Assembly: GCF_011174775.1 (NCBI RefSeq)
Contig: NZ_JAANHS010000016.1
Span: 1 to 58,506, forward strand
DNA: 58,506 nt
Reading direction: 5' to 3'
Origin: Rhodobacter calidifons
GTDB taxonomy: Bacteria > Pseudomonadota > Alphaproteobacteria > Rhodobacterales > Rhodobacteraceae
Shown here piece by piece: positions 6,216 through 21,242 of the stretch. Numbering within the stretch: position 1 is the stretch's first letter; each line of letters opens with the position of its first letter. Both the position numbers and the translations under genes were made by a program. The notes beneath the pieces are model-generated. The model made no database searches, had not been told where the DNA came from, and worked only from the letters and a program-made list of their open reading frames with translations.

Positions 6216-7727
6216 TCACATCACCGCGCCGATCTGCCATGGCACGAACTCGGCCCCGCCAAAGCCCAGCTCTTCCGACAGCGTGCGCGCGCCCGAGGCG
6301 ACGGCGATGATCTTCTCCAGGATCTCCTCGCCCTTGGCCTCGATGCTGGTGCCCTCGAGGATGTCGCCGCAGTTGATGTCCATGTCCTCCTTCATGCGGG
6401 CATACATCTCGGTGTTGGTGGCCAGCTTGATGCAGGGGCTGGGCTTGTAGCCCGAGACGGAGCCGCGCCCGGTGGTGAAGACGATCAGCGTGGCGCCGCT
6501 GGCGATCTGGCCGGTCACGCTGCACGGATCATAGCCGGGGCTGTCCATATAGACGAAACCGGGCGTGGTGATCGGTTCGGCGAACCTGTACACCCCGCTC
6601 AGGGGGGCCGTGCCGCCCTTGGCCACCGCGCCCAGCGATTTTTCCAGGATCGTCGTCAGCCCGCCGCGCTTGTTGCCGGGCGAGGGGTTGTTGTCCATCT
6701 CGCCGCCGTTGACGGCTGTGTAGTTCTCCCACCAGCGGATGCGCTCCAGCAGGCGCTCGCCGACTTCCGGGCTGACGGCGCGGCGGGTCAGCAGGTGTTC
6801 GGCGCCGTAGATTTCCGGCGTCTCGGACAGGATCGTGGTGCCGCCCATCCTGACCAGCAGGTCGCTGGCGTGCCCCAGAGCCGGGTTCGCGGTGATCCCG
6901 CTGTATCCGTCCGATCCGCCGCATTGCAGCCCGACGATCAGCTTCGACACCGGCGCGGCAACGCGCGTGACCTTCGAGGCGACCTCTGCCATCTCGCGCA
7001 GCACGCCCAGCGCCCGGTCGATGGTGGCGCGCGTGCCGCCCTCGCCCTGGATCGTCATGTAGCGGAAATTGCCGTCAGGCCGCAGCCGGCCCTGACCCAC
7101 CAGGTCCGGCACCTGCATCACCTCGCAGCCCAGACCCACCAGCAGGATGCCGCCGAAATTCGCGTTCCGCGCATAGCCCTTCAGCGTGCGCATCAGCGTG
7201 TCGTAACCCTCGTTCACCCCCGACATGCCGCAGCCGGTGTTGTGGACGATGGGCACGAAACCGTCGATGTTCGGCATGGACGACAGCACGGGGTCCTTCT
7301 CGGCCGCCTCGGCGATGAAGCGCGCGACGGACCCCGAGCAGTTCACGCTGGTCAGGATGCCAAGGTAGTTGCGCGTCCCCACCTGCCCGTCCGCGCGGGG
7401 ATAGCCCAGGAACTCGCGCGGCGGCAGCGGGGACAGGGGGCGGACCTCGGCGCCGATGGCATAGTCGGTCGAATGCGGCCCCATGCCCAGATTGTGGCTG
7501 TGGATGTGCCCGCCCGCCGGGATGTCCTCGGTCGCCTGGCCGATGGCCTGGCCATAGCGCAGCACCGTCTCGCCCCTGGCAATCGCGCGGGCGGCGATCT
7601 TGTGGCCGCGTGGGACAGGGCCGGGCAGGGGGACGTCCAGCCCCGCCACCGCGGCGCCCTTGGGCAGGTCGGCCAGCGCGATCACCAGGTTGTCCCGCCC
7701 GTGCAACCGTATTACGGCATCCGCCAT
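6216..7727 (-). CDS. UxaA-family sugar-acid dehydratase (altronate dehydratase-like)
   Basis: A dehydratase of 503 residues from the UxaA/GarD family, whose members convert altronate, galactarate or related sugar acids to 2-keto-3-deoxy acids. The N-terminal SAF-type domain (about 1-90) contains GGHIHSHNLG. The large catalytic domain shows NCSGS, HNTGCGM, LGCE and QCGGSDGYSG, which are conserved in the family. It has the full single-chain length. It is divergent from the GntR regulator at 7796, and the shared operator lies about 56 bases from its start, so it probably belongs to that regulon. The exact sugar acid is not determined. Confidence 0.9.
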   Translation of the reverse strand: MADAVIRLHGRDNLVIALADLPKGAAVAGLDVPLPGPVPRGHKIAARAIARGETVLRYGQAIGQATEDIPAGGHIHSHNLGMGPHSTDYAIGAEVRPLSPLPPREFLGYPRADGQVGTRNYLGILTSVNCSGSVARFIAEAAEKDPVLSSMPNIDGFVPIVHNTGCGMSGVNEGYDTLMRTLKGYARNANFGGILLVGLGCEVMQVPDLVGQGRLRPDGNFRYMTIQGEGGTRATIDRALGVLREMAEVASKVTRVAAPVSKLIVGLQCGGSDGYSGITANPALGHASDLLVRMGGTTILSETPEIYGAEHLLTRRAVSPEVGERLLERIRWWENYTAVNGGEMDNNPSPGNKRGGLTTILEKSLGAVAKGGTAPLSGVYRFAEPITTPGFVYMDSPGYDPCSVTGQIASGATLIVFTTGRGSVSGYKPSPCIKLATNTEMYARMKEDMDINCGDILEGTSIEAKGEEILEKIIAVASGARTLSEELGFGGAEFVPWQIGAVM

Positions 7728-7761
7728 CGCCTTCCCCCTTCACCCGCGGGGGCCAGGCCGC

Positions 7762-7798
7762 TTGACAGCCCGACCACCCGGTCTAACATGTTAGCATG
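7762..7798 (+). promoter_or_regulatory. Promoter with GntR-type palindromic operator, copy 1
   Basis: TTGACA (7762-7767), a 16-base spacer and TAACAT (7784-7789) form a good sigma-70-like promoter for the GntR gene. A perfect 12-base palindrome, CTAACATGTTAG (7783-7794), covers the -10 element and continues into CATG, overlapping the start codon at 7796. The 16-base word CTAACATGTTAGCATG recurs with small changes at 10577 and 18705. Binding there would block transcription of the regulator and perhaps of the divergent dehydratase. The assignment to the adjacent GntR protein is inference. Confidence 0.72.
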
Positions 7799-8527
7799 CT
7801 ACCAGCGCCCGCAACCGGATCACAAGACCAGAATGGCCCGGCCCGGCTGGAGCCGCTGGACCGCTTTCAGGGCTCGCTCGGCCAGCGGGTCTACCAAAGC
7901 CTGAAGCAGGCGATCCTTACGCTGGAGTTCCGCCCCGGCGACAGCATCCGCAAGCCCGAGATCTGCGACCGTCTCGGCGTCTCGCGCAGCCCGGTGGCCG
8001 ATGCGGTGGCGCGGCTGGCGGCGGACGGGCTCGTGGATGTGATCCCCCAGGCCGGCACCTTCGTCACCCGCCTGTCGATGACCGACATCCGCGAAGGCGC
8101 CTTCATCCGCGAGGCGATCGAGGTTGCCGCCGCCGAACGGGTCGCCGCGCAGATCACCGAGGACCAGCTGCGCGACCTGCGCCGCAACCTGCGCCTGCAA
8201 GAGGCGCTGGTGTCCGAGGGCGACCGGCGCGGCTTCATGGCGCTCGACGCGCAGATGCACGAGATGATGCTGTCCTTCACCGGCTTTCCGCGCCTTGCCC
8301 AGGTGGCGCAGACCGCCTGGCTGTCGGTGGATCGCGCGCGCCAGCTGATCCTGCCGGTCGAAGGGCGGTTGCAGGCCACGCTGGAGGAACACCGCGCCAT
8401 CCTCGCCGCCTTCGAGGCGCGCGACCCCCAGGCGGCCCGGCAGGCGCTGCAACACCATCTGCGCCAGCTGCTTACCTATCTCGCGCCGCTGGAACGCGCC
8501 CATCCCGAACTGTTCGCAGCCCCATGA
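7796..8527 (+). CDS. GntR-family transcriptional regulator (FCD subgroup)
   Basis: A DNA-binding regulator of 243 residues. The winged helix-turn-helix lies at about residues 27-95, with LGVSRSPVADAVARLAADG as recognition helix region, followed by an FCD ligand-binding domain whose D..H residues appear in ALDAQMHEMM and LEEHRAIL. The start at 7796 falls only seven bases after the predicted -10, so the mRNA may be leaderless; no later in-frame start is obvious before the DNA-binding domain. It overlaps the next gene by four bases. It probably represses the sugar genes through the CTRACATGYTAGYATG sites. Confidence 0.92.
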   Translation: MLPAPATGSQDQNGPARLEPLDRFQGSLGQRVYQSLKQAILTLEFRPGDSIRKPEICDRLGVSRSPVADAVARLAADGLVDVIPQAGTFVTRLSMTDIREGAFIREAIEVAAAERVAAQITEDQLRDLRRNLRLQEALVSEGDRRGFMALDAQMHEMMLSFTGFPRLAQVAQTAWLSVDRARQLILPVEGRLQATLEEHRAILAAFEARDPQAARQALQHHLRQLLTYLAPLERAHPELFAAP

Positions 8528-9486
8528 TCCCGAACAAGCCCCGCTATGCCACCCGGCTGAACGCCTTCAAGCGGAAGGGCGACACGGTAAAGCAGATGAT
8601 CGCCGCCGCCGGGCAGGTCGGGGGCCTTGATGCCGCCGACCTGAACTTCCCCGACCATTTCGACCACCATTCCCCGGCCGAGCTGTCGCGGATCCTCGCC
8701 GACCACGGCATGGCACTGAACGGCCTCGCCATGCGCTATTACACCGATCCGGGCTTCCGCCTCGGGGCCTTCAGCCACCCCGACCCATCGGTGCGCCGCG
8801 CCGCCATCGACCTCACGAAACGCGGGATCGACGCGCTGGCGGCGATGGGCGGGCGGCTGATGACGCTCTGGCTGGGGCAGGACGGCTTCGACTATTCCTT
8901 CCAGGCCGATTACGCCCGGATGTGGGACGACAGCATTTCGGCCATCGCCGAGGTCGCCGACCACAACCCCGCCATCGACATTGCCGTGGAATACAAGCCC
9001 AACGAACCCCGCGCCCATGTGGTGATGCCCGACATGGCGACGACGCTGCTGGCCCTGGCAGAGGTCGCCCGGCCCAACACCGGCGTCACGCTCGACTTCT
9101 GCCACATGCTTTTCGCGGGCGAGATGCCCGCCCGTGCGGCGATGCTGGCAGGCCGCCACAGCCGCATCCTCGGCGTCCACCTGAACGACGGCTACGGCAA
9201 GCGCGACGATGGCCTCATCGCGGGCTCGGTGCATCCGGTGCAGACGGTGGAACTCTTCATGGCGCTGGACCGTCTTGCCTATGACGGGGTGATCTACTTC
9301 GACACCTTCCCCGACCACGGCGGCACCGACCCCGTGGGCGAGGCGCGGGCGAACATCGCCGCGACCGACCGCCTGCGCGCCATCGCGCGGTCTCTGGCTG
9401 GCAACGCCGATCTGGCGGCGGCGCAGACCCGCCAGGACGCCGCCGCCGCAACCCGGATCGTGATGACTGCGCTTTACGGCGCCTGA
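8524..9486 (+). CDS. Sugar phosphate isomerase/epimerase (xylose isomerase-like TIM barrel)
   Basis: A predicted metal-dependent sugar isomerase or epimerase of 320 residues from the AP-endonuclease-2 superfamily. Candidate metal ligands appear in the usual order: glutamate in VEYKPNEPR, aspartate in TLDFCHML and histidine in GVHLNDGYG. ATG at 8524 overlaps the GntR stop (ATGA), so the two genes are co-translated. The protein would convert the transported sugar, or its oxidised form, to the ketose used by the FGGY kinase at 12558. The substrate is unknown. Confidence 0.87.
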   Translation: MIPNKPRYATRLNAFKRKGDTVKQMIAAAGQVGGLDAADLNFPDHFDHHSPAELSRILADHGMALNGLAMRYYTDPGFRLGAFSHPDPSVRRAAIDLTKRGIDALAAMGGRLMTLWLGQDGFDYSFQADYARMWDDSISAIAEVADHNPAIDIAVEYKPNEPRAHVVMPDMATTLLALAEVARPNTGVTLDFCHMLFAGEMPARAAMLAGRHSRILGVHLNDGYGKRDDGLIAGSVHPVQTVELFMALDRLAYDGVIYFDTFPDHGGTDPVGEARANIAATDRLRAIARSLAGNADLAAAQTRQDAAAATRIVMTALYGA

Positions 9487-9537
9487 GGCCGCTCGTCGTC
9501 GCCCCGTGCGACGGGGCAGACGGTGCAGGAGCAGGCA

Positions 9538-10560
9538 TCAGACCGGCGCATCCGCCCGGATCAGCCCCTCGTCCCGCAGCGCCTGCCACAACGCCTGCGG
9601 GATCACCGCCTGCGCCGCGGCCAGGTTCGACGCCATCTCCGAAAGCCCCTGCCCGCCGGGGATGACCGAGACCACCGCAGGATGCCGCAAGGGGAACTGG
9701 AACGCCGCATCGACCAGCCGCACCCCATGCGCCGCGCAGACGTCTTGCAGACGTGCCGCCTTGTCCAGCACCCAGTCCGGCGCGGGCGCATAGTTGTAAT
9801 GCACCCCGGGTTTCGGCCCGACGGCCAGCACGCCCGAATTGTAGGGCCCGCCGACGACGATCCCCACGCCCCGCGCCTGGCACATCGGCAGGAAACTCTC
9901 CAGCGCCTCCTGCTCCAGCAGCGTATAGCGCCCCGCCAGCAGGAACAGGTCGAAATCGCCGCGCTCCAGCAGCCACTGGCAGGGCTGCCATTCGTTGATC
10001 CCGCCGCCGAAGGCCCGGATCACCCCCTGATCGCGCAAGGCCACCAGCGCGCGGTAGCCGCCCGCCATGAAGGCCTCCAGCCGCTCCTGCAAGGCGGCTT
10101 GCGAGCCGTGGTTGAAGATGTCCAGATCATGCGCATAGAGGATGTCGATCCGGTCCAGCCCCAGCCGCTCCAGCGAAAACTCCAGGCTGCGCATGGTGCC
10201 GTCATAGCTGTAGTCATAGACCTCCTTGCGCGAGGGCACATCGACCCATTTCCCCGCCCCGTCGCCCTGTCCCGGCGGGACGGCCCGCAAAAGCCGCCCG
10301 ACCTTGGAGGACAGGACGTATTCGTCGCGCGGCTTGCCCCGCAGGAACCGGTTCAGCCGCGTCTCGGCCAACCCCAGCCCATACAGGGGCGCGGTGTCGA
10401 AATAGCGCACCCCGCCCTCCCAGGCCGCCTCCAGCACCGCATGGGCCTCATCGTCGCCGATCGCCCGGAACAGGTTGCCCAGAGGCGCCGTGCCGAAGCC
10501 CAGTTCAGTGAAGGTCAGCCCCCCGTTCCCCAGCCGATCCCAGTGTCTTGTCGCCAGCAT
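9538..10560 (-). CDS. Aldo/keto reductase, D-threo-aldose 1-dehydrogenase-like
   Basis: A NAD(P)-dependent oxidoreductase of 340 residues. Catalytic residues are recognisable: FDTAPLYG (Asp and Tyr), LSSKVGR (Lys) and LYAHDLD (His). The protein resembles L-fucose, L-galactose or D-threo-aldose 1-dehydrogenases, which oxidise a pyranose to its lactone. It is divergent from the BtpA-family gene at 10650, with operator copy 2 between them, so it is probably co-regulated. A mutarotase (FucU) and a lactonase-like protein encoded nearby would fit an oxidative pathway. Pyridoxal dehydrogenase is an alternative within the same family. Confidence 0.87.
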   Translation of the reverse strand: MLATRHWDRLGNGGLTFTELGFGTAPLGNLFRAIGDDEAHAVLEAAWEGGVRYFDTAPLYGLGLAETRLNRFLRGKPRDEYVLSSKVGRLLRAVPPGQGDGAGKWVDVPSRKEVYDYSYDGTMRSLEFSLERLGLDRIDILYAHDLDIFNHGSQAALQERLEAFMAGGYRALVALRDQGVIRAFGGGINEWQPCQWLLERGDFDLFLLAGRYTLLEQEALESFLPMCQARGVGIVVGGPYNSGVLAVGPKPGVHYNYAPAPDWVLDKAARLQDVCAAHGVRLVDAAFQFPLRHPAVVSVIPGGQGLSEMASNLAAAQAVIPQALWQALRDEGLIRADAPV

Positions 10561-10576
10561 CCGCCCCTCCCGCTTG

Positions 10577-10594
10577 CTGACATGCTAGTATGAT
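10577..10594 (+). promoter_or_regulatory. GntR-type operator, copy 2, with -10-like TATGAT
   Basis: CTGACATGCTAGTATG (10577-10592) matches the motif at 7783 and 18705, differing at three and two of 16 bases. It lies in the 89-base gap between the divergent aldo/keto reductase and BtpA-family genes and runs into TATGAT (10589-10594), a plausible -10 for the rightward operon. I see no strong -35. The central palindrome is imperfect here. Confidence 0.62.
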
Positions 10595-10649
10595 CCGGCT
10601 TCCCGTCCAACGCCTTTCGCGTTAGCGTGACCCCTGTGGGAGGATGAGA

Positions 10650-11462
10650 ATGTCACGCTTCAAGGCCGTTTTCGGCGACCGCAAGCCGGTCATCGCCATG
10701 GTTCATCTCGGCGCCTCACCGGGAGCGCCGTTGCATGACGCCGCCGCCGGGGTCGAGGGCATCCTCGCCGCCGCCCGCGCCGACCTGCGCGCGCTGCAAG
10801 CCGCAGGCTTCGACGCGGTGATGTTCGGCAACGAAAACGACCGGCCCTACGAGCTGCGCGTCGATACCGCCACCTCCGCCACCATGGCCTACATCATCGG
10901 CCGCCTGCGGGACGAGATCACCGTGCCCTTCGGCGTCAATGTCCTTTGGGACCCGATGTCCACCTTCGCCGTCGCCGCCGCCACGGGTGCGGCCTTCGTG
11001 CGCGAGATCTTCACCGGCACCTATGCCTCCGACATGGGCATCTGGGCCCCCGAAGCCGGCGCCGCCGTCCGCTACGCGCAGCGGCTTGGCGCTGGCAACG
11101 TCGCCCGCCTCTACAACGTCTCCGCCGAATTCGCCGACAGCCTCGACCGCCGCCCCCTGCCTGACCGGGCACGCTCCGCCGTCTTCTCCTCGATCCCCGA
11201 CGCCGTCCTCGTCTCGGGCGCGATCACCGGCGAGGCCGCGCGGATGGAGGACCTCGAAGCCGTCAAGCGCGCCCTGCCCGCCACCCCCGTCCTCGCCAAC
11301 ACCGGGGTGAAACACGCCACGATCGCCGATGTCCTCGCCGTCGCCGACGGCTGCATCGTTGGCTCCGCGCTCAAGCACAACGGCGACACCTGGGCCGCCG
11401 TCGACCCCGACCGCGCCGCCGATTTCATGGCCCGCGCCCGCGCGGCCCGAGGTGGGAAATGA
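10650..11462 (+). CDS. BtpA/SgcQ family protein
   Basis: A TIM-barrel protein of 270 residues of the BtpA/SgcQ family (COG0434 type), with the typical opening VIAMVHLGASPGAPLHD, the acidic FGNENDRPYE segment and the late GVKHATIADVL and CIVGSALK phosphate-binding-like loops. GGGAGG at 10638-10643 places the start at 10650 rather than the in-frame ATG at 10644. In Escherichia coli the homologue SgcQ lies in the uncharacterised sgc sugar locus together with SgcX. The same pairing occurs here with the M42 gene at 11473. The reaction is not established. Confidence 0.88.
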   Translation: MSRFKAVFGDRKPVIAMVHLGASPGAPLHDAAAGVEGILAAARADLRALQAAGFDAVMFGNENDRPYELRVDTATSATMAYIIGRLRDEITVPFGVNVLWDPMSTFAVAAATGAAFVREIFTGTYASDMGIWAPEAGAAVRYAQRLGAGNVARLYNVSAEFADSLDRRPLPDRARSAVFSSIPDAVLVSGAITGEAARMEDLEAVKRALPATPVLANTGVKHATIADVLAVADGCIVGSALKHNGDTWAAVDPDRAADFMARARAARGGK

Positions 11463-11472
11463 GGGTCGGGAA

Positions 11473-12561
11473 ATGACTCTCCCCTCCGTCGCCGACCTCA
11501 CCACCCAACTCATGCTGATCCCCGGCCTCGCCGGATACGAGACCCGCGTCGCCGCCGCCATCGCAGCACACCTCGAAACCCTCGGCCTGCCGCACACCTC
11601 CGACCGCCTCGGCAACCTGACCTGCACGATTCCCGGCGACCCGGCCCTGCCGCCCGTGATGATCTTCACCCACATAGACCAGCTCGGCTTCATCGTCCGC
11701 AAGATCGAGCCCTCCGGCCTCATCCGCCTCGAACGCCTCGGCGGCGTCCCCGAACGCGCACTTCCCGCGCAAGCCGTCCTCCTCTGCACCGACCACGGGG
11801 ACCTCCCCGCCCTCATCGCCAACAAAAGCCACCACGCCACCACGCCGGAGGAGAAATACAAGGTCCTCCCCTACGCCGAGCTCTACGTCGATGCGGGCTT
11901 CACCTCGAAAGCCGAAGCCGAGGCCGCAGGCGTCCGCATCGGCACCCCCGTCACCTACCTCCCCCGCGCGCTGACCCTTGCGGGCGGCCGCATCGCCGGC
12001 ACCTCCGTGGACGACCGCGCCGGATGCGCCGCCCTCCTGAAACTCGCCGAGGCCCGCCGCGCGAAACCCGGCCCCACCCTCCACCTCGTCTGGTCGGTGC
12101 AAGAGGAATACAACCTCCGTGGCGTCCTCCCCGCCGCCACCGCGCTGCAACCCGCCATCGCCGTCCAGATCGACCTCCTCCTCGCCTGCGACACCCCCGA
12201 CATGACGGCCCGAGGCGACGTCACCCTCGGCGGCGGCCCCGGCATCTCGCTCTACTCCTTCCACGGCCGCGGCACGCTGAACGGCGTCATCCCGCACCCC
12301 GCCCTCGTCCGCCTGATGGAAACCGCCGCCGCCACCGCCAACCTCCCCCTCCAGCGCTCCGCCCATACCGGAGCCCTCACCGACCTCAGCTACATCCAGT
12401 TCATGGGCCCCGAAGGCGTCGCCTGCCTCGATGTGGGCTTTCCCATGCGCTACTCGCACTCCGCCCTCGAAGTCGTCGACCCCAAGGACCTCGAAGCCCT
12501 CGTCACCCTCCTCGACACCGCGCTTTCCGCCATCACCCCGGACCTGAAACTCACCCGATGA
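11473..12561 (+). CDS. M42 family metallopeptidase-like protein (SgcX-like)
   Basis: A protein of 362 residues with the M42 aminopeptidase/endoglucanase fold. Metal ligands are visible in the expected order: IFTHIDQLGF (His/Asp), SVDDRAGC (Asp), VQEEYNLRG (Glu-Glu), LLACDTPD (Asp) and the late MRYSHSALEV (His). ATG at 11473 follows GTCGGGAA, ten bases after the preceding stop, and its stop overlaps the kinase start by four bases. Placement between an SgcQ homologue and a sugar kinase argues for a role on a sugar or glycosyl compound rather than on a peptide; that is inference. Leucine codons here are unusually rich in CTC. Confidence 0.86.
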   Translation: MTLPSVADLTTQLMLIPGLAGYETRVAAAIAAHLETLGLPHTSDRLGNLTCTIPGDPALPPVMIFTHIDQLGFIVRKIEPSGLIRLERLGGVPERALPAQAVLLCTDHGDLPALIANKSHHATTPEEKYKVLPYAELYVDAGFTSKAEAEAAGVRIGTPVTYLPRALTLAGGRIAGTSVDDRAGCAALLKLAEARRAKPGPTLHLVWSVQEEYNLRGVLPAATALQPAIAVQIDLLLACDTPDMTARGDVTLGGGPGISLYSFHGRGTLNGVIPHPALVRLMETAAATANLPLQRSAHTGALTDLSYIQFMGPEGVACLDVGFPMRYSHSALEVVDPKDLEALVTLLDTALSAITPDLKLTR

Positions 12562-14048
12562 CCCACACTCTCGGCCCCCACACACTGGGAATCGACATCG
12601 GCACCTTCGAATCCAAGGGCGTCCTCGTCGATGCCCAAGGGAAGATCACCGCCCAGGCCTCCCGCCCGCACAAGATGCTCGTCCCCCGCGCCGGATGGGC
12701 CGAGCACCGCGCGGATGAGGACTGGTGGGGCGATTTCGTCCACATAACCAAGGCGCTCCTCGCCCAATCCGGCCTCGACCCGCACGAGATCAAGGCCGTC
12801 GCCACCTCTGCCATCGGCCCCTGCATGCTGCCCGTGGACGCCGCAGGCAAACCCCTGATGAACGGCGTCCTCTACGGCGTCGATACCCGCGCCACCGACC
12901 AGATCGCCGCCCTGAATGACCGGATCGGAGAGGCCACGATCCACGCCCGCTGCGGCAACGCGCTGACCTCGCAGTCCGTCGGGCCAAAGATCCTCTGGCT
13001 CAAGGAAACCCACCCCGACCTTTACACCCGCACGGCCAAGGTCCTGACCTCCACCAGCTACCTCACCTGGAAGCTGAGCGGCGCATACGTCATCGACCAC
13101 TACACCGCCGCCAACTTCTCGCCCCTCTACGACGTCGGCACCCAGAACTGGACCGCCGACCTCGCCCCCGAGATCATCCCCCTCCACAAACTCCCGCGCC
13201 TGATGTGGTCCACCGAAATCGCCGGTCACATCACCGCCGCCGCCGCGCGCGAGACCGGCCTCGCCCAGGGCACCCCCGTCACCTGCGGCACCATCGACGC
13301 CGCCGCCGAGGCGGTCAGCGTCGGCGTCCAGAACCCGGGCGAGATGATGCTGATGTATGGCTCCACCATCTTCATCATCCAGGTCACGGGCGAACCCGTC
13401 CGCGACCCGCGCCTGTGGTATGCGCCCTGGCTCTTCCCCGGCACCCATGCCTCGATGGCGGGCCTTGCCACCTCTGGCACGCTGACCCACTGGTTCCGCG
13501 ACCAGCTTGCCCGCGACACCGACTTTGCCGCCCTCGTCACCGAGGCCGCCCAAAGCCCCAAGGGCGCCAAGGGCCTCCTCTGCCTGCCCTATTTCTCCGG
13601 TGAGCGCACGCCGATCCACGACCCGCACGCCCGCGGCGTGTTCTTCGGCCTGAACCTGACCCACACCCGCGCCGACCTGTTCCGCGCCGTCTGCGAAGGC
13701 ATCGCCGCAGGCACCGCGCATGTGCTGGAGACCTATGCTCAGGTCGGCGCCTCCCCCGCCCGTGTCCTAGCCGTCGGCGGCGGCACGAAGAACCCGCTCT
13801 GGCTGCAAGCCACCTCCGACTTCGGCGGCGTTCCGCAGCATGTCTGCGAAAAGACCATCGGTGCCAGCTACGGCGACGCCTTCCTCGCCGCCTGCGCCAT
13901 AGGGGCCGCAAACCCACAGGACATCCTGACCTGGAACCCGAACGCGACCACGGTCCAGCCCGAAGCCGTCCCCGCCTACGCCACGCAATTCCCGCTGTGG
14001 AAACGCCTCTACACCCAGACCCGCGACCTGATGCAGGCCCTGCCGTGA
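12558..14048 (+). CDS. FGGY-family carbohydrate kinase
   Basis: A sugar kinase of 496 residues similar to xylulokinase. The N-terminal phosphate loop GIDIGTFESKGVLVD, the substrate region AGWAEHRADEDWW, the ATP-site GTIDAAAEAV and the C-terminal VGGGTKNPLWLQ are present, so both FGGY domains are complete. It overlaps the preceding gene (ATGA at 12558) and is the last gene of the operon starting at 10650. It probably phosphorylates the ketose formed by the isomerase at 8524. Codon choice resembles that of the two upstream genes (many CTC leucines). Confidence 0.92.
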   Translation: MTHTLGPHTLGIDIGTFESKGVLVDAQGKITAQASRPHKMLVPRAGWAEHRADEDWWGDFVHITKALLAQSGLDPHEIKAVATSAIGPCMLPVDAAGKPLMNGVLYGVDTRATDQIAALNDRIGEATIHARCGNALTSQSVGPKILWLKETHPDLYTRTAKVLTSTSYLTWKLSGAYVIDHYTAANFSPLYDVGTQNWTADLAPEIIPLHKLPRLMWSTEIAGHITAAAARETGLAQGTPVTCGTIDAAAEAVSVGVQNPGEMMLMYGSTIFIIQVTGEPVRDPRLWYAPWLFPGTHASMAGLATSGTLTHWFRDQLARDTDFAALVTEAAQSPKGAKGLLCLPYFSGERTPIHDPHARGVFFGLNLTHTRADLFRAVCEGIAAGTAHVLETYAQVGASPARVLAVGGGTKNPLWLQATSDFGGVPQHVCEKTIGASYGDAFLAACAIGAANPQDILTWNPNATTVQPEAVPAYATQFPLWKRLYTQTRDLMQALP

Positions 14049-14175
14049 CCCGGACCCTCGCCGGACGGTGGACCGGCCGATTGCTTGCCCCGTTCGTCGA
14101 TGACTTCGCCACTTCTCGCTGCCGACCGCGCTTCGACGGGACGCCGAAGGCGCACGAGGAGGCATCCCCGGGGCA

Positions 14176-14631
14176 TCACAACTCGGGCAATTCCACCACG
14201 CCCTTCTTCAGGATGAAGCAGCCGTAAGGGCCGGAGTCCGAGGTGCGGATGATCGCGAAGGCTTGCTTGGCGGCGGCGTAGAACTCGAACCGCTCCAGCG
14301 CCGCGATGGGCACCGGGCGCCCCTCGGCCTGATCGACGACGGCCTGCATCCGGGCGAAGATCGGCACCTGCCCGTCCGGGTTGCCCACCACCTGCATCCG
14401 CGTGACCGGCGCCGGGACAAAGGTATCCAGCGGCATCAGCGTCAGGATCGCCCTCGCGGCCGTGGGGATGTCGCATCCCGCCATGTCGATCAGCCGGCCA
14501 TAGGTCGTCTCTGCCGCGATGGTCGCCGCGGGATGGTTCACGTCGCAGATCACCAGATCGTCGCCATGCCCCATCAGCATCAGGACATGCACCACCTCGG
14601 CCGACAGTCTCTGGTCGATCCCTCTCAGCAT
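14176..14631 (-). CDS. RbsD/FucU family sugar mutarotase, copy 1
   Basis: A small mutarotase of 151 residues that interconverts sugar anomers. The family opening MLRGIDQRL, the catalytic MGHGDDLVICD histidine/aspartate segment and the C-terminal PYGCFILKKGV are present; FucU proteins are usually about 140-150 residues. It is the last gene of the leftward transporter operon, 93 bases after the permease gene. A paralogue of the same length lies at 19857 in the divergent operon. Confidence 0.92.
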   Translation of the reverse strand: MLRGIDQRLSAEVVHVLMLMGHGDDLVICDVNHPAATIAAETTYGRLIDMAGCDIPTAARAILTLMPLDTFVPAPVTRMQVVGNPDGQVPIFARMQAVVDQAEGRPVPIAALERFEFYAAAKQAFAIIRTSDSGPYGCFILKKGVVELPEL

Positions 14632-14724
14632 GGTTGCACAGGCCCGCAGAGTGTTACCAAATCATGAATGCCCACAGCCAACCCATTGATTCCATTGACA
14701 CCGAGAGACGCGCCGCGCGCGGCG

Positions 14725-15690
14725 CTACTTCACCGCCCCCGCCGCCATGCCCTTGATGATGAACCGCTCCAGCAGGACCCCGATCACGATCAGGGGCAGG
14801 ATCGCCGCGAAGGACAGCGCCGCCATCGACCACCAGTTGATCCCCTGGCTGCCGGTCTGGCTGGCCACCATCACCGGCAGGGTATTGGCGTGGGTCGAGG
14901 TCAGGAGGGCGGCGAAGAAATACTCGTTCCAGGTCAGGACGAGGGACAGGATGAAGGCTGCCACCATGCCGGGCAGCGCGATGGGCAGGATGATGGTCAG
15001 GAAGGCCCCCCAGATCGACAGCCCGTCCACCAGGGCAGCTTCCTCAAGCTCGGTGGGGATGGTCTCGAACTGGTCCTTCATGATCCAGATGACGATGGGC
15101 AGTACGGTCAGCGTGTAGAGCAGGATCAGCCCGATCCTGGTGTCGAGGAGCGCGAGTTCCTTGTACAGGACCAGGAAGGGCAGGGCCAGCACGACGGGCG
15201 GCAGGATCAGCTGGCTGAGAAAGAAGAACGAGATGTCGTCGTTCTTCATGAAGCCGAAGCGGTAGCGGAACCGCGACAGGCCATAGGCCGCCAGCGATCC
15301 CAGCACCACCGCCAGCGTCGAGGCCGACAGCGCCACGATGGCCGAATTGCCGAACCGCTTGACGAACTCGGCCCGCGCCGTGCTTTCGCGGCCCAGCGCC
15401 TCGGGCGACAGGCCGATCGATTCCCAGCCCTTCCACTTCGGCGCAAAGAACAGCTTCTTCGCCCAGTCGCCCTCGGGCGTCCAGTCGGCGGGCCAGGGGA
15501 TCATCTGCCCCTGCATCACGTTCGGCGCCATCTTGAAGCTGGTGGTCGCGGTCCAGTAGATCGGGAACAGGCAGATCACCGCCCAGAGCGCAAGCACCCC
15601 GTAGATCGCCGCCCGGCCCGCCCACCATCTCATGCGGAAGCTGCGGTCGCTGTCGCTGTCGCGGAAGATCGGCGCGGGAGTGTCGGTCAT
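14725..15690 (-). CDS. Carbohydrate ABC transporter permease (MalG type)
   Basis: An inner-membrane permease subunit of 321 residues with six predicted membrane segments, starting at GVLALWAVICLFPIYW. The EAA loop EEAALVDGLSIWGAFLTIIL, which contacts the ATPase, is intact. It follows the MalF-type permease by 13 bases and belongs to the operon SBP-MalF-MalG-FucU read leftward from 18508. It pairs with the ATPase encoded divergently at 18789. Confidence 0.93.
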   Translation of the reverse strand: MTDTPAPIFRDSDSDRSFRMRWWAGRAAIYGVLALWAVICLFPIYWTATTSFKMAPNVMQGQMIPWPADWTPEGDWAKKLFFAPKWKGWESIGLSPEALGRESTARAEFVKRFGNSAIVALSASTLAVVLGSLAAYGLSRFRYRFGFMKNDDISFFFLSQLILPPVVLALPFLVLYKELALLDTRIGLILLYTLTVLPIVIWIMKDQFETIPTELEEAALVDGLSIWGAFLTIILPIALPGMVAAFILSLVLTWNEYFFAALLTSTHANTLPVMVASQTGSQGINWWSMAALSFAAILPLIVIGVLLERFIIKGMAAGAVK

Positions 15691-15703
15691 CGCCGGGATC
15701 GCC

Positions 15704-16807
15704 TCAGGTGCGCGGCCGCGTCAGGCGCGCGGCGAGTTTCATCAGGATGGTCATGCCGATCACGATCAGCACCAGATAGACCATGGCCAGCATCGTGCCG
15801 TAGCCGACATTCGACCTTTCGCGGTATTCGCGGAAGATGAAGCTGGTGACGGTATCCGTCGCCCCCCCCGGCCCGCCCGAGGTGATGGTGATGACGATGT
15901 CGGCCAGCTTCAGCTTGAAGATGATGCGGATCAGGATCGCGGTCACCGAGACCGGCAGCATCAGCGGGAAGGTGATCTCCCAGAACGATTTCCACCCCGA
16001 GGCGCCGTCAACCCGGCTCGCCTCCTGCAACTCTTTCGGAATGGCCTGAAGGCCAGCCAGCAGCATGATCATCATGAAGGGGATGAAGGTCCAGGCGTCC
16101 AGCACCATGATGGTCAGCTTGGCCATCCAGGGCGACTCGAAGAAGCTGGGGTTCTCGATCCCCAGGGCGCGGGCAAGACGTGCCAGGGGGCCGAAGCGCG
16201 GCTCGAGCATCGACTTGCCGATCATCCAGCTGACCGCCACCGGCGACAGCATCAGGGGCATGAGGAAGGATACCCGCCAGAACTTCCGCGCCCGGATCTG
16301 GCCCGCAAGGATCAGCGCCAGACCGAAGGCGATGGCATATTCCACCACGATCGCGGCGACATAGATCACCATGTTGCCAAGCGCGTTCCAGTAGAACGGG
16401 TCGTGCCACATCTGCACCAGGTTCGCGGTGCCGTTGAACTGGCGGCCCGAAAGGCTGCTGAGATTCCAGTTGGAAAAGGCAATGACCAGTCCGAAAAGCA
16501 GCGGGAACACCGTCAGCGAGATCACGAACAGGGCGGCCGGCAGGACGAAGAGCGTCCGCTTGCCCTGTTCGCCCCGGACAAGGACCTGCGCCCAGCACAG
16601 GCAGGTGGCAAAGAGGCAGTAGGCATACAGCGTCGGGCGCCAGTTGGCGAAGCCGAAGTCCCGCCAGCCCGCAGTCTGGGCGACCTGGGCCGCCGCGACC
16701 AGCGCCATCAGGGCCGCCGAGCCCCAGACCAGCGCCCGGCCCATCCGGCGCCGGCTGTCGGAAATGTCGTCACTGGTCACGACGTGAAGCTGATCGCTGC
16801 CGCTCAC
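15704..16807 (-). CDS. Carbohydrate ABC transporter permease (MalF type)
   Basis: A membrane permease of 367 residues with about eight hydrophobic segments. The EAA motif LQEASRVDGASGWKSFWEIT is clear in the C-terminal third. The N-terminal 30 residues are cytoplasmic and polar. It is encoded between the solute-binding protein and the MalG-type permease of the same operon, 72 bases after the former. Together they would import a mono- or disaccharide whose identity the sequence does not reveal. Confidence 0.93.
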   Translation of the reverse strand: MSGSDQLHVVTSDDISDSRRRMGRALVWGSAALMALVAAAQVAQTAGWRDFGFANWRPTLYAYCLFATCLCWAQVLVRGEQGKRTLFVLPAALFVISLTVFPLLFGLVIAFSNWNLSSLSGRQFNGTANLVQMWHDPFYWNALGNMVIYVAAIVVEYAIAFGLALILAGQIRARKFWRVSFLMPLMLSPVAVSWMIGKSMLEPRFGPLARLARALGIENPSFFESPWMAKLTIMVLDAWTFIPFMMIMLLAGLQAIPKELQEASRVDGASGWKSFWEITFPLMLPVSVTAILIRIIFKLKLADIVITITSGGPGGATDTVTSFIFREYRERSNVGYGTMLAMVYLVLIVIGMTILMKLAARLTRPRT

Positions 16808-16879
16808 CTGACTGCCCCTGCCTTCGGCGAAGAAGGGCGCGCAGGTCTCCCCGCGCGCCCCGCTGGTTCACGGATCGGG

Positions 16880-18508
16880 TCACATCCCCAGGCTGGCCTT
16901 GTAAAGCGCGATCTGGTTGTCGCGGCCGATCTGGTCGGTGATCTTCTCCCAGGCGGCGGCAATGGCATCCGCGGTTTCCTGGGCCGACTTGTACTGCCCG
17001 GCAAAACCCTTGGCCAGTTCGTCCTCGGCCACCGAGTAATACTGGAAGATGCCCGGGATCCGCGGCTCGATCGCCGCATTCGGGTGGTTGTAGCTGTCGG
17101 CGTTCGACCCGAGGTAGTCCTCGACGAAGGCCCGGTCATAGCCCGCCGCTTCCCATTCCTCGTAGTTGAAATGCGAGTTGCGGTAGGGCTGGAAGCCCGA
17201 GGGATAGGCCGCCGTCCACAGGGACAGGTCCTTGCCGCCCAGATGCGCCGCAGCCGACCAGGCCGCCTTGCGCTTCTTCTCGTCGCCCGAGACGCGGCTG
17301 GTCACATAGATGCCCCAGCCGATGTAGGCCATGACCGGCGCCTCGTTCGCGGTCTCTTCCCAGGCCCCTGCGGCAGAGTTGTAGCGCCGCTCCGATCCGG
17401 GGTTGATCCCGAAGCCCACCACGTCACCCACGACCGAGGTGTCCGAGGTGCGGGCCGAGGACCCCACGTCGCCCCACCACATCAGCATCGATCCGGTGCC
17501 GGCCAGGAACTGGCTGAAGGCCGTGGTGCCCGGGTCGGCGTTGATCTGGTCGGCCGGATAGGCACCGGGGGTGGCGATCAGGTCCATCACGTCCTGGATC
17601 GCCTGCACCCAGCCGGGGTTGTTCACCCGCGGCTTCATCGTGTCGGGATCGAACAGCCATGCCCGGTCGTCGGGGTGCTTCACATAGGCTGCGGCGCGGT
17701 TGCAGATGAAGTAGAAGCCGAAGCCGCCCCAGCCCTTCAGCGGATCAAGGTAGCCATGTGCCGGCAGGCCGGTCAGCGGGTCGGTCTGGCCGACCAGCGC
17801 CTTGGACACGGCGTTGACCTGTTGCCAGGTCCTGGGAACCTCGGCCCCGCCGATGGCGCCTTCGCCGAAGTAATCCTTGCGGTAGGCGAAGGTGTGGCAG
17901 TCGCCGTCGATGGTGATGCGGTATTTCTTGCCGTTCCAGGTGCCGACGGGCGGCTGGAGGTAGCCCACGAGGTCGCTGTCATCGATCTGGGCCGACACCC
18001 AGTCCGGCATCTCGTCCAGCAGGCCGCGGCCGGCGGTGTCGCCCTCGAAGGGGGCGCCCATCTCGAGGATGTCGAAATCGACCGTCCCGGTGGCGATGGA
18101 CTGCTGGAGGCGCGAGTTGTAGTCGGCCTGCGCCAGGTCGATCCAGTTGATCCTGGCGCCGGTATAGGCTTCCCACGGCTTGAGGAAGCCGCGGAACAAG
18201 AGGTTGTGCAGGTTCTGGTTGTTCAGCCCCATGAAGGTCAGCTCGACCCCGGCGAACTCGCCCTCGGCCACGTTGGCCTTGGTGGCGCCGAGGCAAAGCT
18301 CGCCCACCTGCTGCCAGTGCGCGTCCGTCGGGCTGCCTTGGCCGACGCCCGGAATGGCAAGGATCCGGGCGCGCAGATTGTCCTGGGCCGAGGCCGGTTT
18401 CGGCATGAGGCCGGCAGGCAGCGCGCTGGCCGCCCCCAGAGCGGTCGCGCCCTTCAGGAACCGGCGCCGGCTGAGCCGGCTTGCATACTCGTATAGTCTT
18501 GGTTTCAC
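16880..18508 (-). CDS. Tat-exported sugar ABC transporter substrate-binding protein
   Basis: A periplasmic binding protein of 542 residues, long for this family (often 400-450). The N-terminus carries a twin-arginine signal, SRRRFLKG, followed by a hydrophobic stretch and the cleavage-like PKPASA. I chose GTG at 18508 because GGGAGGA lies just upstream and this places the signal at residue about 13; reading frames extending upstream add implausible sequence. It heads the leftward operon, with operator copy 3 about 200 bases upstream. Export in folded form may indicate a bound cofactor or metal, which is speculative. Confidence 0.9.
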   Translation of the reverse strand: MKPRLYEYASRLSRRRFLKGATALGAASALPAGLMPKPASAQDNLRARILAIPGVGQGSPTDAHWQQVGELCLGATKANVAEGEFAGVELTFMGLNNQNLHNLLFRGFLKPWEAYTGARINWIDLAQADYNSRLQQSIATGTVDFDILEMGAPFEGDTAGRGLLDEMPDWVSAQIDDSDLVGYLQPPVGTWNGKKYRITIDGDCHTFAYRKDYFGEGAIGGAEVPRTWQQVNAVSKALVGQTDPLTGLPAHGYLDPLKGWGGFGFYFICNRAAAYVKHPDDRAWLFDPDTMKPRVNNPGWVQAIQDVMDLIATPGAYPADQINADPGTTAFSQFLAGTGSMLMWWGDVGSSARTSDTSVVGDVVGFGINPGSERRYNSAAGAWEETANEAPVMAYIGWGIYVTSRVSGDEKKRKAAWSAAAHLGGKDLSLWTAAYPSGFQPYRNSHFNYEEWEAAGYDRAFVEDYLGSNADSYNHPNAAIEPRIPGIFQYYSVAEDELAKGFAGQYKSAQETADAIAAAWEKITDQIGRDNQIALYKASLGM

Positions 18509-18693
18509 GTTCGGTCCTCCCTTGGTTGTCTCTAGTGCCCCTTTGCGGGGTCGCGTCCTGTTCGTGCCGGCGTGCCGGAGGGGCTGCCGCCATTGGCGGT
18601 GGCCCGGGATTGTTCCTGGGAAAGGTTGCGGGGCCTCCCAACCCCGGGACAGCTGCCTGTCCCTGCGGCAAGCTTCGCAGTCCGGTCGGGGCT

Positions 18694-18722
18694 CTGTCAA
18701 GCTTCTAACATGTTAGTATGCT
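18694..18722 (+). promoter_or_regulatory. Promoter with GntR-type operator, copy 3
   Basis: CTGTCA (18694-18699), a 17-base spacer and TATGCT (18717-18722) form a plausible rightward promoter. The spacer holds the perfect palindrome CTAACATGTTAG (18705-18716), and CTAACATGTTAGTATG differs from copy 1 at one base. The site lies in the 280-base gap between the divergent transporter genes (binding protein at 18508, ATPase at 18789). I see nothing else coding in that gap. A leftward TTGACA is also present (18700-18695) but without a good -10. Confidence 0.68.
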
Positions 18723-18788
18723 CAGCGGGTGGACAGCGCCTTGCGGCTGCGCTTAGTCTGGCGGCAGGGAACAGGGAGAGGGTGGCCC

Positions 18789-19838
18789 ATGGCCGAAGTG
18801 ACGATCCGGGCGCTGGAGAAATCCTATGGCGGACTGAAGGTCATCCATGGGCTGGACCTGGACATCCCGGACGGGGCCTTCGTGGTGCTGGTCGGGCCCT
18901 CGGGCTGCGGGAAGTCCACGCTTCTGCGGATGATCGCCGGGCTGGAGGAGATCACCGCCGGCGAGATCCGCATCGGCGCGCGGCGGGTGAACAACCTGCC
19001 ACCGTCCGAGCGCGACATCGCCATGGTGTTCCAGAACTACGCGCTTTACCCGCACAAGACGGTGGCGGCCAACATGGGCTTTGCGCTGAAGATGCGCGGC
19101 ATGAACAAGGCGGCGATTCGGACCAAGGTCGAACAGGCGGCGGCGATCCTGGGACTGACGCCCTACCTTGACCGCTATCCCCGCGCCCTGTCCGGCGGTC
19201 AGCGCCAGCGCGTCGCCATGGGCCGCGCCATCGTGCGCGACCCGCAGGTGTTCCTGTTCGACGAGCCGTTGTCGAACCTGGACGCCAAGCTGCGCGTCCA
19301 GATGCGGACCGAGATCAAGGAGCTGCACCAGCGGCTGAAGACCACGACCGTCTATGTCACCCACGACCAGATCGAGGCGATGACCATGGCCGACCGGATC
19401 GTGGTGATGCAGGGCGGCCGGATCGAGCAGGTCGGCGCCCCGCTGGACCTGTATGACCGCCCCGCGAACACCTTCGTCGCGGCCTTCATCGGCAGCCCCT
19501 CGATGAACCTGCTGGACGGGCGCATCGCTGGCGGGATGGTCGAGGTGGCAGGCGTCCGCCTGCCCCTGCCCGAAGGCGCGCAGGCCGAGGAGGGCTGCGC
19601 CGTGATCTACGGTATCCGGCCCGAGCATCTGGCCCTGGCCGATGCGGGTCTGTCCGGGACCGTTGCGGTGGTGGAGCCCACGGGATCGGAAACCCATGTC
19701 GTCGTCCGCCTTCAGGGCCGCGAACTGACGGCGGTGTTCCGCAACCGTGTGGGCTTCGGGCCGGGGGCCACGATCACTCTGGCGCCCGACGCCGCGGTGG
19801 CGCATCTATTCGACAAGGCCACGGGCCAGCGGCTTTAG
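18789..19838 (+). CDS. Sugar ABC transporter ATP-binding protein (MalK/UgpC type)
   Basis: The ATPase subunit of the carbohydrate importer, 349 residues. Walker [10 protein letters not shown] is at 36-44, the signature LSGGQRQR precedes Walker [13 protein letters not shown], and a C-terminal TOBE regulatory domain follows residue about 240. GGGAGAGGG upstream supports the start at 18789. It heads the rightward operon ATPase-FucU-RbsK, divergent from the permeases it should energise. Confidence 0.95.
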
Positions 19839-19856
19839 GATCGGACAGGGGGGACC

Positions 19857-20309
19857 ATGCTGAAGGGGATCGACAACCGGCTGAATGCCGATGTGCTGCG
19901 CGTGCTGCGGGCGATGGGGCATGGCGATGTGCTGATTGTCGCCGACACCAACTTTCCATCGGATTCCACAGCGCGGGCAACCGTGACCGGAGAACTGCTG
20001 CGGATGGAGAACCTGACCGCCGCCCAGGCGGTGCAGGCGATCCTCTCGGTCCTGCCGCTGGACACCTTCGTCGAGGATTTCGCCGGCCGGATGGAAATCG
20101 TCGGCGACCCCGCCACCATCCCTCCGGTGCAGGCCGAGGTTCAGGCCGAGATCGACCGTGCCGAGGGGCGACACCGCCCGATGATCGGCATCGAACGCTT
20201 CGCCTTCTACGACATGGCGCGGCGGTCCTATGCCGTCATCCAGACCGGCGAGCGGCGGTTCTACGGCTGCTTCATGTTCCGCAAGGGCGTGATCCCCCCG
20301 GAGGCCTGA
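19857..20309 (+). CDS. RbsD/FucU family sugar mutarotase, copy 2
   Basis: A mutarotase of 150 residues, paralogous to the protein encoded at 14176. MLKGIDNRL, RAMGHGDVLIVAD and FYGCFMFRKGV align with the same places in copy 1, while the middle differs enough to exclude a very recent duplication. It starts 18 bases after the ATPase stop and is followed three bases later by the ribokinase, so it is within a tight operon. Confidence 0.92.
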   Translation: MLKGIDNRLNADVLRVLRAMGHGDVLIVADTNFPSDSTARATVTGELLRMENLTAAQAVQAILSVLPLDTFVEDFAGRMEIVGDPATIPPVQAEVQAEIDRAEGRHRPMIGIERFAFYDMARRSYAVIQTGERRFYGCFMFRKGVIPPEA

Positions 20310-20312
20310 GAC

Positions 20313-21242
20313 ATGAAACCCATCGTCATCCTCGGCATCTTTGTCGCCGACACCGCCTATCGCGCCGAGCGTCAGCCGAAGATGGGCGAGACCATCCTCG
20401 GCACCTCCTTTGCCCTCGGGCCGGGGGGCAAGGGCTCGAACCAGTCGGTCGCCGCCGCGATGGCGGGCGGCAAGGTGCATTTCATCACCCGCCTGGGGGC
20501 CGATGCCTTCGCCGAGATCGCACAATCCACCTGGGCCAGGGCGGGCGTCGTGCCCGAGGTGAAGGTGGATCGCGACAGCTATACGGGTGCGGCCTACATC
20601 TTCATCGAGAACGCCACCGGCAACAACGCGATCATCGTGGCACCCGGCGCGGCGGGAAGGGTCTCGGTCGAAGATGTGGAAGAGAAGGCCGACCTGATCC
20701 GGTCCGCCTCGGTCTTCGTCACCCAGCTGGAACAGCCGATTCCCGCGGCGCTGCGGGCGTTGCAGATCGCGCGTGCGGCCGGGGTGACGACGATCCTGAA
20801 CCCCGCCCCCGCCGCCAGCCTGCCGGACGAGATGCTGGCGCTGTGCGACTACCTGACGCCGAACGAATCCGAGGCCGAGGCGCTGACCGGCCTGCCCGTG
20901 ACCTCGGTCGAAGAGGCAGAGGCCGCGGCCCGGGCCCTGCGCGCGCGGGGCGTGGGCGCGGTGGTGATCACGCTGGGTGACAAGGGCGCGCTTTACCACG
21001 ACGGCACGCGCACGGTGCATGTGCCGGTCATCTCGGCCGGCCCGGTGGTCGAGACGACGGGCGCGGGCGATGCCTTCAACGGCGGCTTCGCCGTCGCGCT
21101 GGCCGAGGGGCGCGAGGTGATCGAGGCGGTGCGCTTCGGCTGCGCCACGGCCGGGATTTCGGTCACCCGCCCCGGCACGGCCCCCGCCATGCCCGCAAGG
21201 GCCGAGATCGAGGCGCTGCTGGCGCGCGTTGCGGCGGGCTAA
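20313..21242 (+). CDS. rbsK: Ribokinase-like PfkB sugar kinase
   Basis: A sugar kinase of 309 residues with GPGGKGSNQSVAAA near residue 40 and the catalytic TTGAGDAFNGG near residue 250; the full ribokinase length is present. It lies directly behind an RbsD/FucU mutarotase, a classical arrangement for ribose use, but here in a transporter operon of the MalK type instead of the RbsA type. The sugar may therefore not be ribose. The stop overlaps the convergent DeoR gene by four bases. Confidence 0.85.
   Translation: MKPIVILGIFVADTAYRAERQPKMGETILGTSFALGPGGKGSNQSVAAAMAGGKVHFITRLGADAFAEIAQSTWARAGVVPEVKVDRDSYTGAAYIFIENATGNNAIIVAPGAAGRVSVEDVEEKADLIRSASVFVTQLEQPIPAALRALQIARAAGVTTILNPAPAASLPDEMLALCDYLTPNESEAEALTGLPVTSVEEAEAAARALRARGVGAVVITLGDKGALYHDGTRTVHVPVISAGPVVETTGAGDAFNGGFAVALAEGREVIEAVRFGCATAGISVTRPGTAPAMPARAEIEALLARVAAG

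Follow-up and report, generated by a model that had tools for sequence, protein, structure and literature searches.

A probable L-fucose-type sugar regulon with a palindromic operator at divergent promoters and a GntR/FCD regulator in Rhodobacter calidifons

The stretch of DNA analysed here – referred to as the window – comprises 58,506 nucleotides (nt) of Rhodobacter calidifons (contig NZ_JAANHS010000016.1) and carries a block of sugar genes in which one palindromic sequence recurs in three divergent intergenic regions. We consider it very likely that the product of the GntR/FCD gene inside this block (7796-8527) is the repressor of an L-fucose-type oxidative pathway cluster, and that the three palindromes are its operators. 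A preliminary description of the DNA had tied about 13 genes over 15 kb to one regulator; the gene count now stands at 14, from 6216 to 21242 (Table 1), and the remainder of that claim – a single regulon, with the GntR gene as its probable regulator – is supported by comparative evidence.

In the mechanism proposed here, a dimer of the GntR/FCD protein would bind CTAACATGTTAG, overlapping the -10 elements of the divergent promoters, and would keep RNA polymerase off six units: the UxaA-family dehydratase gene; GntR with the xylose-isomerase-like gene (Epim); the aldo-keto reductase gene (AKR); BtpA-M42-FGGY; the gene for the substrate-binding protein (SBP) with Perm1-Perm2-FucU1; and MalK-FucU2-RbsK. 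Release would be brought about by a pathway intermediate, be it L-fucose, L-fuconate or 2-keto-3-deoxy-L-fuconate. The mRNA of the regulator would begin at or next to its ATG, and the 12-base-pair (bp) element would serve at once as operator, carrier of the -10 element and 5' border of the gene. The protein itself has an N-terminal winged helix (PF00392, 63.6 bits; cut-off 27) and a C-terminal FCD domain (PF07729, 97 bits; cut-off 24.3), and falls below every NCBIfam equivalog cut-off for GntR proteins (PhnR, NanR, LldR, UxuR and others), the best being PhnR with 97.2 bits against the 271.5 needed. Palindromic operators are well known for regulators of the GntR/FCD type; the fusion of the operator to the regulator's start codon is the unusual part of an otherwise familiar system. 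If correct, the proposal provides a sharply defined and testable regulon in a widespread bacterial family.

The 16-base motif CTRACATGYTAGYATG, reported in the preliminary description for three places, matches exactly at 7783, 10577 and 18705. Allowing up to three mismatches yields seven matches, four of which are three-mismatch readings of the same three places; shuffled sequences gave a mean of 0.56 matches and at most 5, and seven were reached in none of 100 shuffles. Two copies do share an identical and perfect 12-bp palindrome, CTAACATGTTAG, exact at 7783 and 18705, and the copy at 10577 reads CTGACATGCTAG, two mismatches away. Gene assignments from Pfam and NCBIfam place all three sites in intergenic regions between divergent genes (UxaA/GntR, AKR/BtpA and SBP/MalK), as had been described, and the overlap with -10-like elements is likewise present, in the form TTGACA-16-TAACAT towards GntR and TTGGAC-17-TAGCAT towards AKR. 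A single -10 element can serve both strands of a palindrome. At operator 1, the ATG at the 3' end of the 16-mer is the GntR start codon.

Across the whole genome (3.62 Mb), a scan for exact CTRACATGYTAG returned the three sites of the cluster and no place beyond them. With one mismatch, three further places appear, of which one falls within a reading frame resembling MalK (all three were compared with the cluster genes and five others); at up to two mismatches there is no excess in the whole genome, the two strands giving 64 and 86 matches vs 142 and 150 for the reversed control.

Within the genus – a set of 32 genomes, with relatives named Tabrizicola and with L075, which belongs to another family, excluded – the exact 12-bp palindrome occurs at 48 places in 25 genomes, and its reversed control nowhere. 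By the preliminary description, many copies at unrelated genes would have spoken against a single regulon; in the genus, all 48 exact copies lie inside the cluster, 24 of them between GntR and UxaA, 21 between SBP and MalK and three directly before Perm1. The presence of the motif follows that of the GntR gene, which had been named as the natural candidate: 24 of 24 genomes with the gene carry it, vs one of the eight without (Fisher p 2e-6). That sole GntR-less carrier (G011) has its copy between SBP and MalK and also possesses operator 2, on a contig that runs through the permeases, FucU1, FGGY, M42 and BtpA and then ends inside AKR, where GntR would come next. Loci L078 (G014) and L079 (G025) have their GntR gene spread over two frames, through a frameshift or an assembly error.

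The association extends to the family, examined in 159 genomes, one per genus, with GntR called at E 1e-45 or better. The exact motif is present in 18 and the GntR gene in 34 of these; among the other genera, with the window's own genome excluded, 14 of 33 with GntR carry the motif, vs 3 of 125 without (Fisher 1e-8). In ten of the 14, the site lies at most 90 bp from the GntR match, and in the remaining four (G079, G085, G095 and G123) it is found at SBP/MalK. The GntR-less carriers (G074, G190 and G191) are by number at chance level, the reversed control matching 6 of 159. In the first two, the palindrome precedes genes for tripartite ATP-independent periplasmic (TRAP) transport, with a different GntR gene adjacent or one gene away, as in locus L176; around the palindrome of G191, nothing was recognised.

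To see which genes bear the site, named relatives were collected by a profile search of genome contigs from an 11-row alignment, keeping the best 80 of 202; their loci include Tabrizicola, Rhodobacter, Gemmobacter, Roseibacterium, Sulfitobacter, Hoeflea and Hongsoonwoonella. A site with at most one mismatch was counted within 200 nt upstream, and genes with less than 200 nt upstream were dropped, as were those whose best alignment starts past query residue 30 (for GntR, L078 and L079). By this count, the site precedes GntR in 78 of 80 loci, UxaA in 67 of 67, AKR in 55 of 62, BtpA in 50 of 55 and SBP in 7 of 8. Counts are lower for MalK (7/21) and Perm1 (7/26), rare for FGGY (1/58), FucU1 (1/40) and FucU2 (1/41), and nil for Epim (0/65), M42 (0/56), Perm2 (0/44), RbsK (0/13) and the genes labelled amido (0/40) and rbk1 (0/42). 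One shuffle per upstream region never came below two mismatches. Some of the MalK misses come from paralogous ATPases encoded at other places in the loci, with about 40% identity, and among distinct MalK upstream regions – identical upstream sequences are counted once in all distinct-site counts – 28 of 42 carry the site with no mismatch, and the remaining 14 have two or more. The motif columns hold 1.8-2.0 bits, vs 0.3-0.9 upstream and 0.3-1.1 downstream, a difference partly inflated by preselection, as leaving out sites with two or more mismatches is enough to raise the information content within the motif.

The spacing between operator and regulator gene is conserved as well. In 80 of 85 distinct GntR sites, the ATG follows the palindrome by 1 nt and is in frame, with the reading frame open; of the rest, L075 and L179 have an ATG at +1 that is out of frame, and L161, L176 and L184 have none within 5 nt. 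Of the 82 sites whose ATG falls within 5 nt, 65 have TTGAC at position -21 relative to the palindrome, and another five have it at -22 or -23. With the spacing TTGACA-16-TAACAT-6-ATG, transcription would be expected to begin at the ATG, and we therefore infer that the GntR mRNA is leaderless, with the operator over its -10 element. AKR, by contrast, appears to have a short leader, given the GGAGG found at +19 to +21 in 25 of its 60 sites, of which 28 have TTGG at -22. The MalK/SBP sites show CTGTC at -11 and GACAG at +27, each in 27 of 28, and TTGC is found at -21 in 5 of 20 Perm1 sites. For SBP, a GTG start at 18508 seems likelier than a TTG at 18700, a choice made by eye.

Table 1. Genes, operators and promoter elements of the cluster, in window coordinates
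Feature	Position	Strand or setting	Remark
UxaA-family dehydratase, proposed L-fuconate dehydratase	6216..7727	-	FucD in its stead in four relatives
GntR/FCD regulator, proposed repressor	7796..8527	+	Pfam GntR + FCD
Xylose-isomerase-like TIM-barrel protein (Epim)	8524..9486	+	directly 3' of GntR
Aldo-keto reductase (AKR), proposed L-fucose dehydrogenase	9538..10560	-	nearest solved chains are L-galactose dehydrogenases
BtpA/SgcQ family protein	10644..11462	+	
M42 peptidase-family protein	11473..12561	+	
FGGY sugar kinase	12558..14048	+	
RbsD/FucU mutarotase 1 (FucU1)	14176..14631	-	
ATP-binding cassette (ABC) permease 2 (Perm2; BPD_transp_1)	14725..15690	-	
ABC permease 1 (Perm1; BPD_transp_1)	15704..16807	-	
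SBP with twin-arginine translocation (Tat) signal	16880..18508	-	
MalK/UgpC-type ABC ATPase	18789..19838	+	
RbsD/FucU mutarotase 2 (FucU2)	19857..20309	+	
PfkB/ribokinase-family kinase (RbsK)	20313..21242	+	
Operator 1, CTAACATGTTAG	7783..7794	between UxaA (-) and GntR (+)	1 nt before GntR ATG
Operator 2, CTGACATGCTAG	10577..10588	between AKR (-) and BtpA (+)	
Operator 3, CTAACATGTTAG	18705..18716	between SBP (-) and MalK (+)	
-35 TTGACA, putative GntR promoter	7762..7767	+	16 bp before TAACAT
-10 TAACAT inside operator 1	7784..7789	+	6 nt before ATG
-35 TTGGAC, putative AKR promoter	10605..10610	-	17 bp before TAGCAT in operator 2
Conserved CTGTCA box, possible -35 towards MalK; TATGCT at 18717 as -10	18694..18699	+	role inferred
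Conserved GGACAG box (CTGTCC on -), possible -35 towards SBP	18731..18736	-	role inferred

Two further elements lie close to the operators. A second palindrome, TAGCATGCTA, overlaps operator 1, 8 bp downstream and across the start codon (7787-7802), and is possibly a second binding register at the GntR site. Between operator 2 and BtpA, at 10617-10632, stands CGCGTTAGCGTG (CACGCTAGCGCG in relatives), an element whose conservation was judged by eye and which is possibly the site of another regulator.

The operator and its adjoining ATG recur at the first permease gene. In the set of 36 distinct loci whose SBP and Perm1 genes share a strand (opposite strands, cut-off ends and gaps below 0 or above 8000 bp being excluded), all 11 with an SBP-Perm1 gap of at least 620 bp have an operator at the start of Perm1, followed after 1-2 nt by the ATG (in L073 with one mismatch), vs none of the 25 with gaps of 58-471 bp. 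Split at 250 bp, the count is 11 of 13 long-gap vs 0 of 23 short-gap loci (Fisher 1.3e-7). Other genera agree, in that L197, whose gap measures about 3.8 kb, has the Perm1 operator and the short-gap loci L194, L195 and L196 show none. Additional loci outside this count, with no SBP in the stretch (L104, L133, L157 and L162 among them), also carry the operator before Perm1. The content of the spacer varies, including a nucleotide-sugar epimerase-type protein (L059 and L070), a glycosyltransferase (L070) and a PUCC protein (L061). The tree calls for at least six changes (five if just the starred branches are counted), and every one of them falls within a single clade of 17.

With regard to the pathway, the window holds AKR, UxaA, the mutarotases and a lactonase (3781-4626), the last without an operator. 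The nearest model of the lactonase is L-fucono-1,5-lactonase (151 bits; cut-off 400) and the best model of FucU1 is L-fucose mutarotase (69 bits; cut-off 141), whereas UxaA comes nearest to galactarate dehydratase among NCBIfam models. The identity of the dehydratase is illuminated by the 80 named loci, where UxaA is found in 67, FucD in seven, both in three and neither, within the stretch, in nine. In the FucD-only loci (L154, L157, L162 and L184), an operator stands 29-50 nt upstream of FucD, which puts such sites at genes of L-fucose catabolism in orthologous loci. The FucD of L154 matches solved L-fuconate dehydratases at E 4e-164, and those of the other three are 82-86% identical to it. 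This exchange suggests that the UxaA-family enzyme performs the FucD step – that is, acts as an L-fuconate dehydratase – and so offers a candidate function for a member of that family. A short-chain dehydrogenase/reductase and a fumarylacetoacetate hydrolase (FAH) family protein accompany FucD, as they do UxaA in many loci; the window's own genome has a homologue of this FAH hydrolase on another contig (G000:C22:75309-76157, locus L198; 71% identical to that of L154), and its locus shows no operator at 0-1 mismatch.

That the cluster serves a substrate other than L-fucose is possible, if on balance unlikely; it might be a similar sugar, for instance L-galactose or D-arabinose, or else a glycoside imported through the ABC system. 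The solved relatives of AKR and the galactarate model of UxaA speak for such a substrate, and BtpA, M42 and FGGY have no place in a simple fucose route; on the other side stand the best models of the lactonase and of FucU1, together with the replacement of UxaA by FucD in some relatives. We regard as still less probable an activating or dual role of the GntR protein in place of simple repression. Operator 3 does sit between the possible -35 and -10 elements towards MalK, and a TTGACA is seen on the - strand beyond it towards SBP, but at GntR and AKR the operator covers the -10 element, the usual place of a blocking repressor.

Nor does another protein seem a serious contender for the palindromes. 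A DeoR-family regulator is encoded at the end of the same cluster (21239-22018), yet it is a very improbable ligand: among 25 rows it has a match in the window and L056 only, a count made on locus stretches, many of which end near RbsK. Six loci that extend past RbsK and keep their operators intact (L057, L108, L109, L110, L165 and L186) have no DeoR gene beside RbsK; L196 has a 35% match, at 2.9 kb from RbsK on the far side. On the evidence of these loci, we rejected this candidate. Scarcely credible, finally, is the notion that the repeats are conserved -10 promoter elements and nothing else, with no repressor bound. TAACAT indeed reads as a -10 element on both strands of the palindrome, but such a view would have to accommodate the 12-bp palindromy, the co-occurrence with the GntR gene seen in whole genomes and the lack of any copy outside the cluster in 32 genomes.

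Repression by the GntR/FCD protein thus remains the reading we prefer, and several points weigh against it or against its details. Binding, repression, the transcription units, leaderlessness and the effector are all predicted on a computational basis. By eye, no convincing -35 element is seen for BtpA or UxaA. The exact 12-mer – the only form scanned for – is missing from 19 of the 33 other genera that bear GntR, and the same CTAACATGTTAG palindrome occurs at DapA/TRAP genes near other GntR genes (L176:4904, L191:4893 and L192:6815). UxaA, AKR, the lactonase and FucU1 all score under their model cut-offs, and FucD reaches no NCBIfam cut-off; the best solved match of the L154 FucD is an unnamed mandelate-racemase-like chain (1.6e-169), followed by human ENOSF1 (6e-167), both ahead of the L-fuconate dehydratases. 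In the loci with both UxaA and FucD (L159, L168 and L171), FucD has no operator. As for the permease, the 620/471 bp border was taken from the data, and at the 250 bp split two of the 13 long-gap loci lack the operator; all 11 rows with the Perm1 operator fall in the one clade of 17. A deletion of the spacer would also take the operator with it, and the position of Perm1 and its operator are therefore not independent; one gain followed by several deletions of spacer and operator explains the pattern as well as repeated gains do.

Since the palindrome also stands beside other GntR genes, the motif alone does not name its protein. In L176, L191 and L192, the site lies upstream of genes for TRAP transporters, with DapA or another GntR gene of the FCD type on its other side, and the recognition helices of the GntR proteins there differ, by eye, from that of the cluster GntR; one core operator may be common to several GntR proteins across the family. 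No other use of the palindrome was seen in the window's genome. The DapA aldolase gene of L176 was considered as a further target and rejected, as the same palindrome lies near TRAP genes and a different GntR gene in all three loci; its operator probably belongs to another regulon, and no match to this DapA was found in the window's genome.

A broader reading would join four parts: that the 12-bp palindrome is operator, divergent -10 carrier and 5' border of leaderless genes; that an operator-ATG cassette appears wherever the permease gene is parted from its operon; that UxaA does the FucD step; and that BtpA-M42-FGGY take part in fucose-type catabolism. We advance this combination tentatively, its joint truth being conceivable rather than probable.

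The notion that this family has a fucose regulon has probably been published before. Leyn et al. (2017; PMC5507952) describe the L-fucose loci of two Halomonas strains, of A. marincola and of Rhodobacteraceae bin08, and one of their figures marks predicted FucR sites; as here, these are oxidative L-fucose loci with predicted sites, a Rhodobacteraceae bin among them, and for bin08 a full oxidative L-fucose pathway and a predicted fucose ABC system are given. Locus L157, from the metagenome-assembled genome HLUCCA08, holds an ortholog of the cluster GntR (64%) and operators; judging by the names, HLUCCA08 may well be that bin08, although 'HLUCC' does not occur in the accessible text of the paper. 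That text does not state the family of FucR, its motif or the genomes that carry its sites. The loci described there have FucD where the window has UxaA, and neither the leaderless layout nor the permease operator figures in what is accessible of it.

For the layout of the regulator gene, a parallel exists in the acuR-acuI-dddL operon of Rhodobacter sphaeroides, a leaderless operon in which the repressor gene comes first and is under its own control (PMC3017554). AcuR, however, belongs to the TetR family and has acrylate as co-inducer, and leaderlessness was measured there and is predicted here. In S. meliloti, 171 leaderless starts have been mapped (PMC3616915). The fusion of operator and start codon would offer a clean case of repression and translation of leaderless regulator genes.

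The fuc operon of Campylobacter jejuni, an L-fucose cluster (PMC7685106), resembles the present one in its predicted dehydratase uxaA', a hydrolase, a mutarotase and a regulator FucR, and differs in having two major facilitator superfamily transporters and dapA; in the accessible part of that source, no ABC system is named. A literature search for TAACATGTTA returned, by title, nothing on this GntR regulator; one joining BtpA, GntR, ABC transporter and altronate found no paper, and hits for BtpA with SgcQ or with fucose were unrelated by title. The present cluster would give the poorly understood pair of BtpA/SgcQ and M42 proteins a concrete catabolic setting. A comparable pairing is presumably that of BtpA (SgcQ) and an M42 protein (SgcX) in the sgc cluster of Escherichia coli, which, unlike the cluster described here, we take to combine them with phosphotransferase system transport and a DeoR-type regulator.

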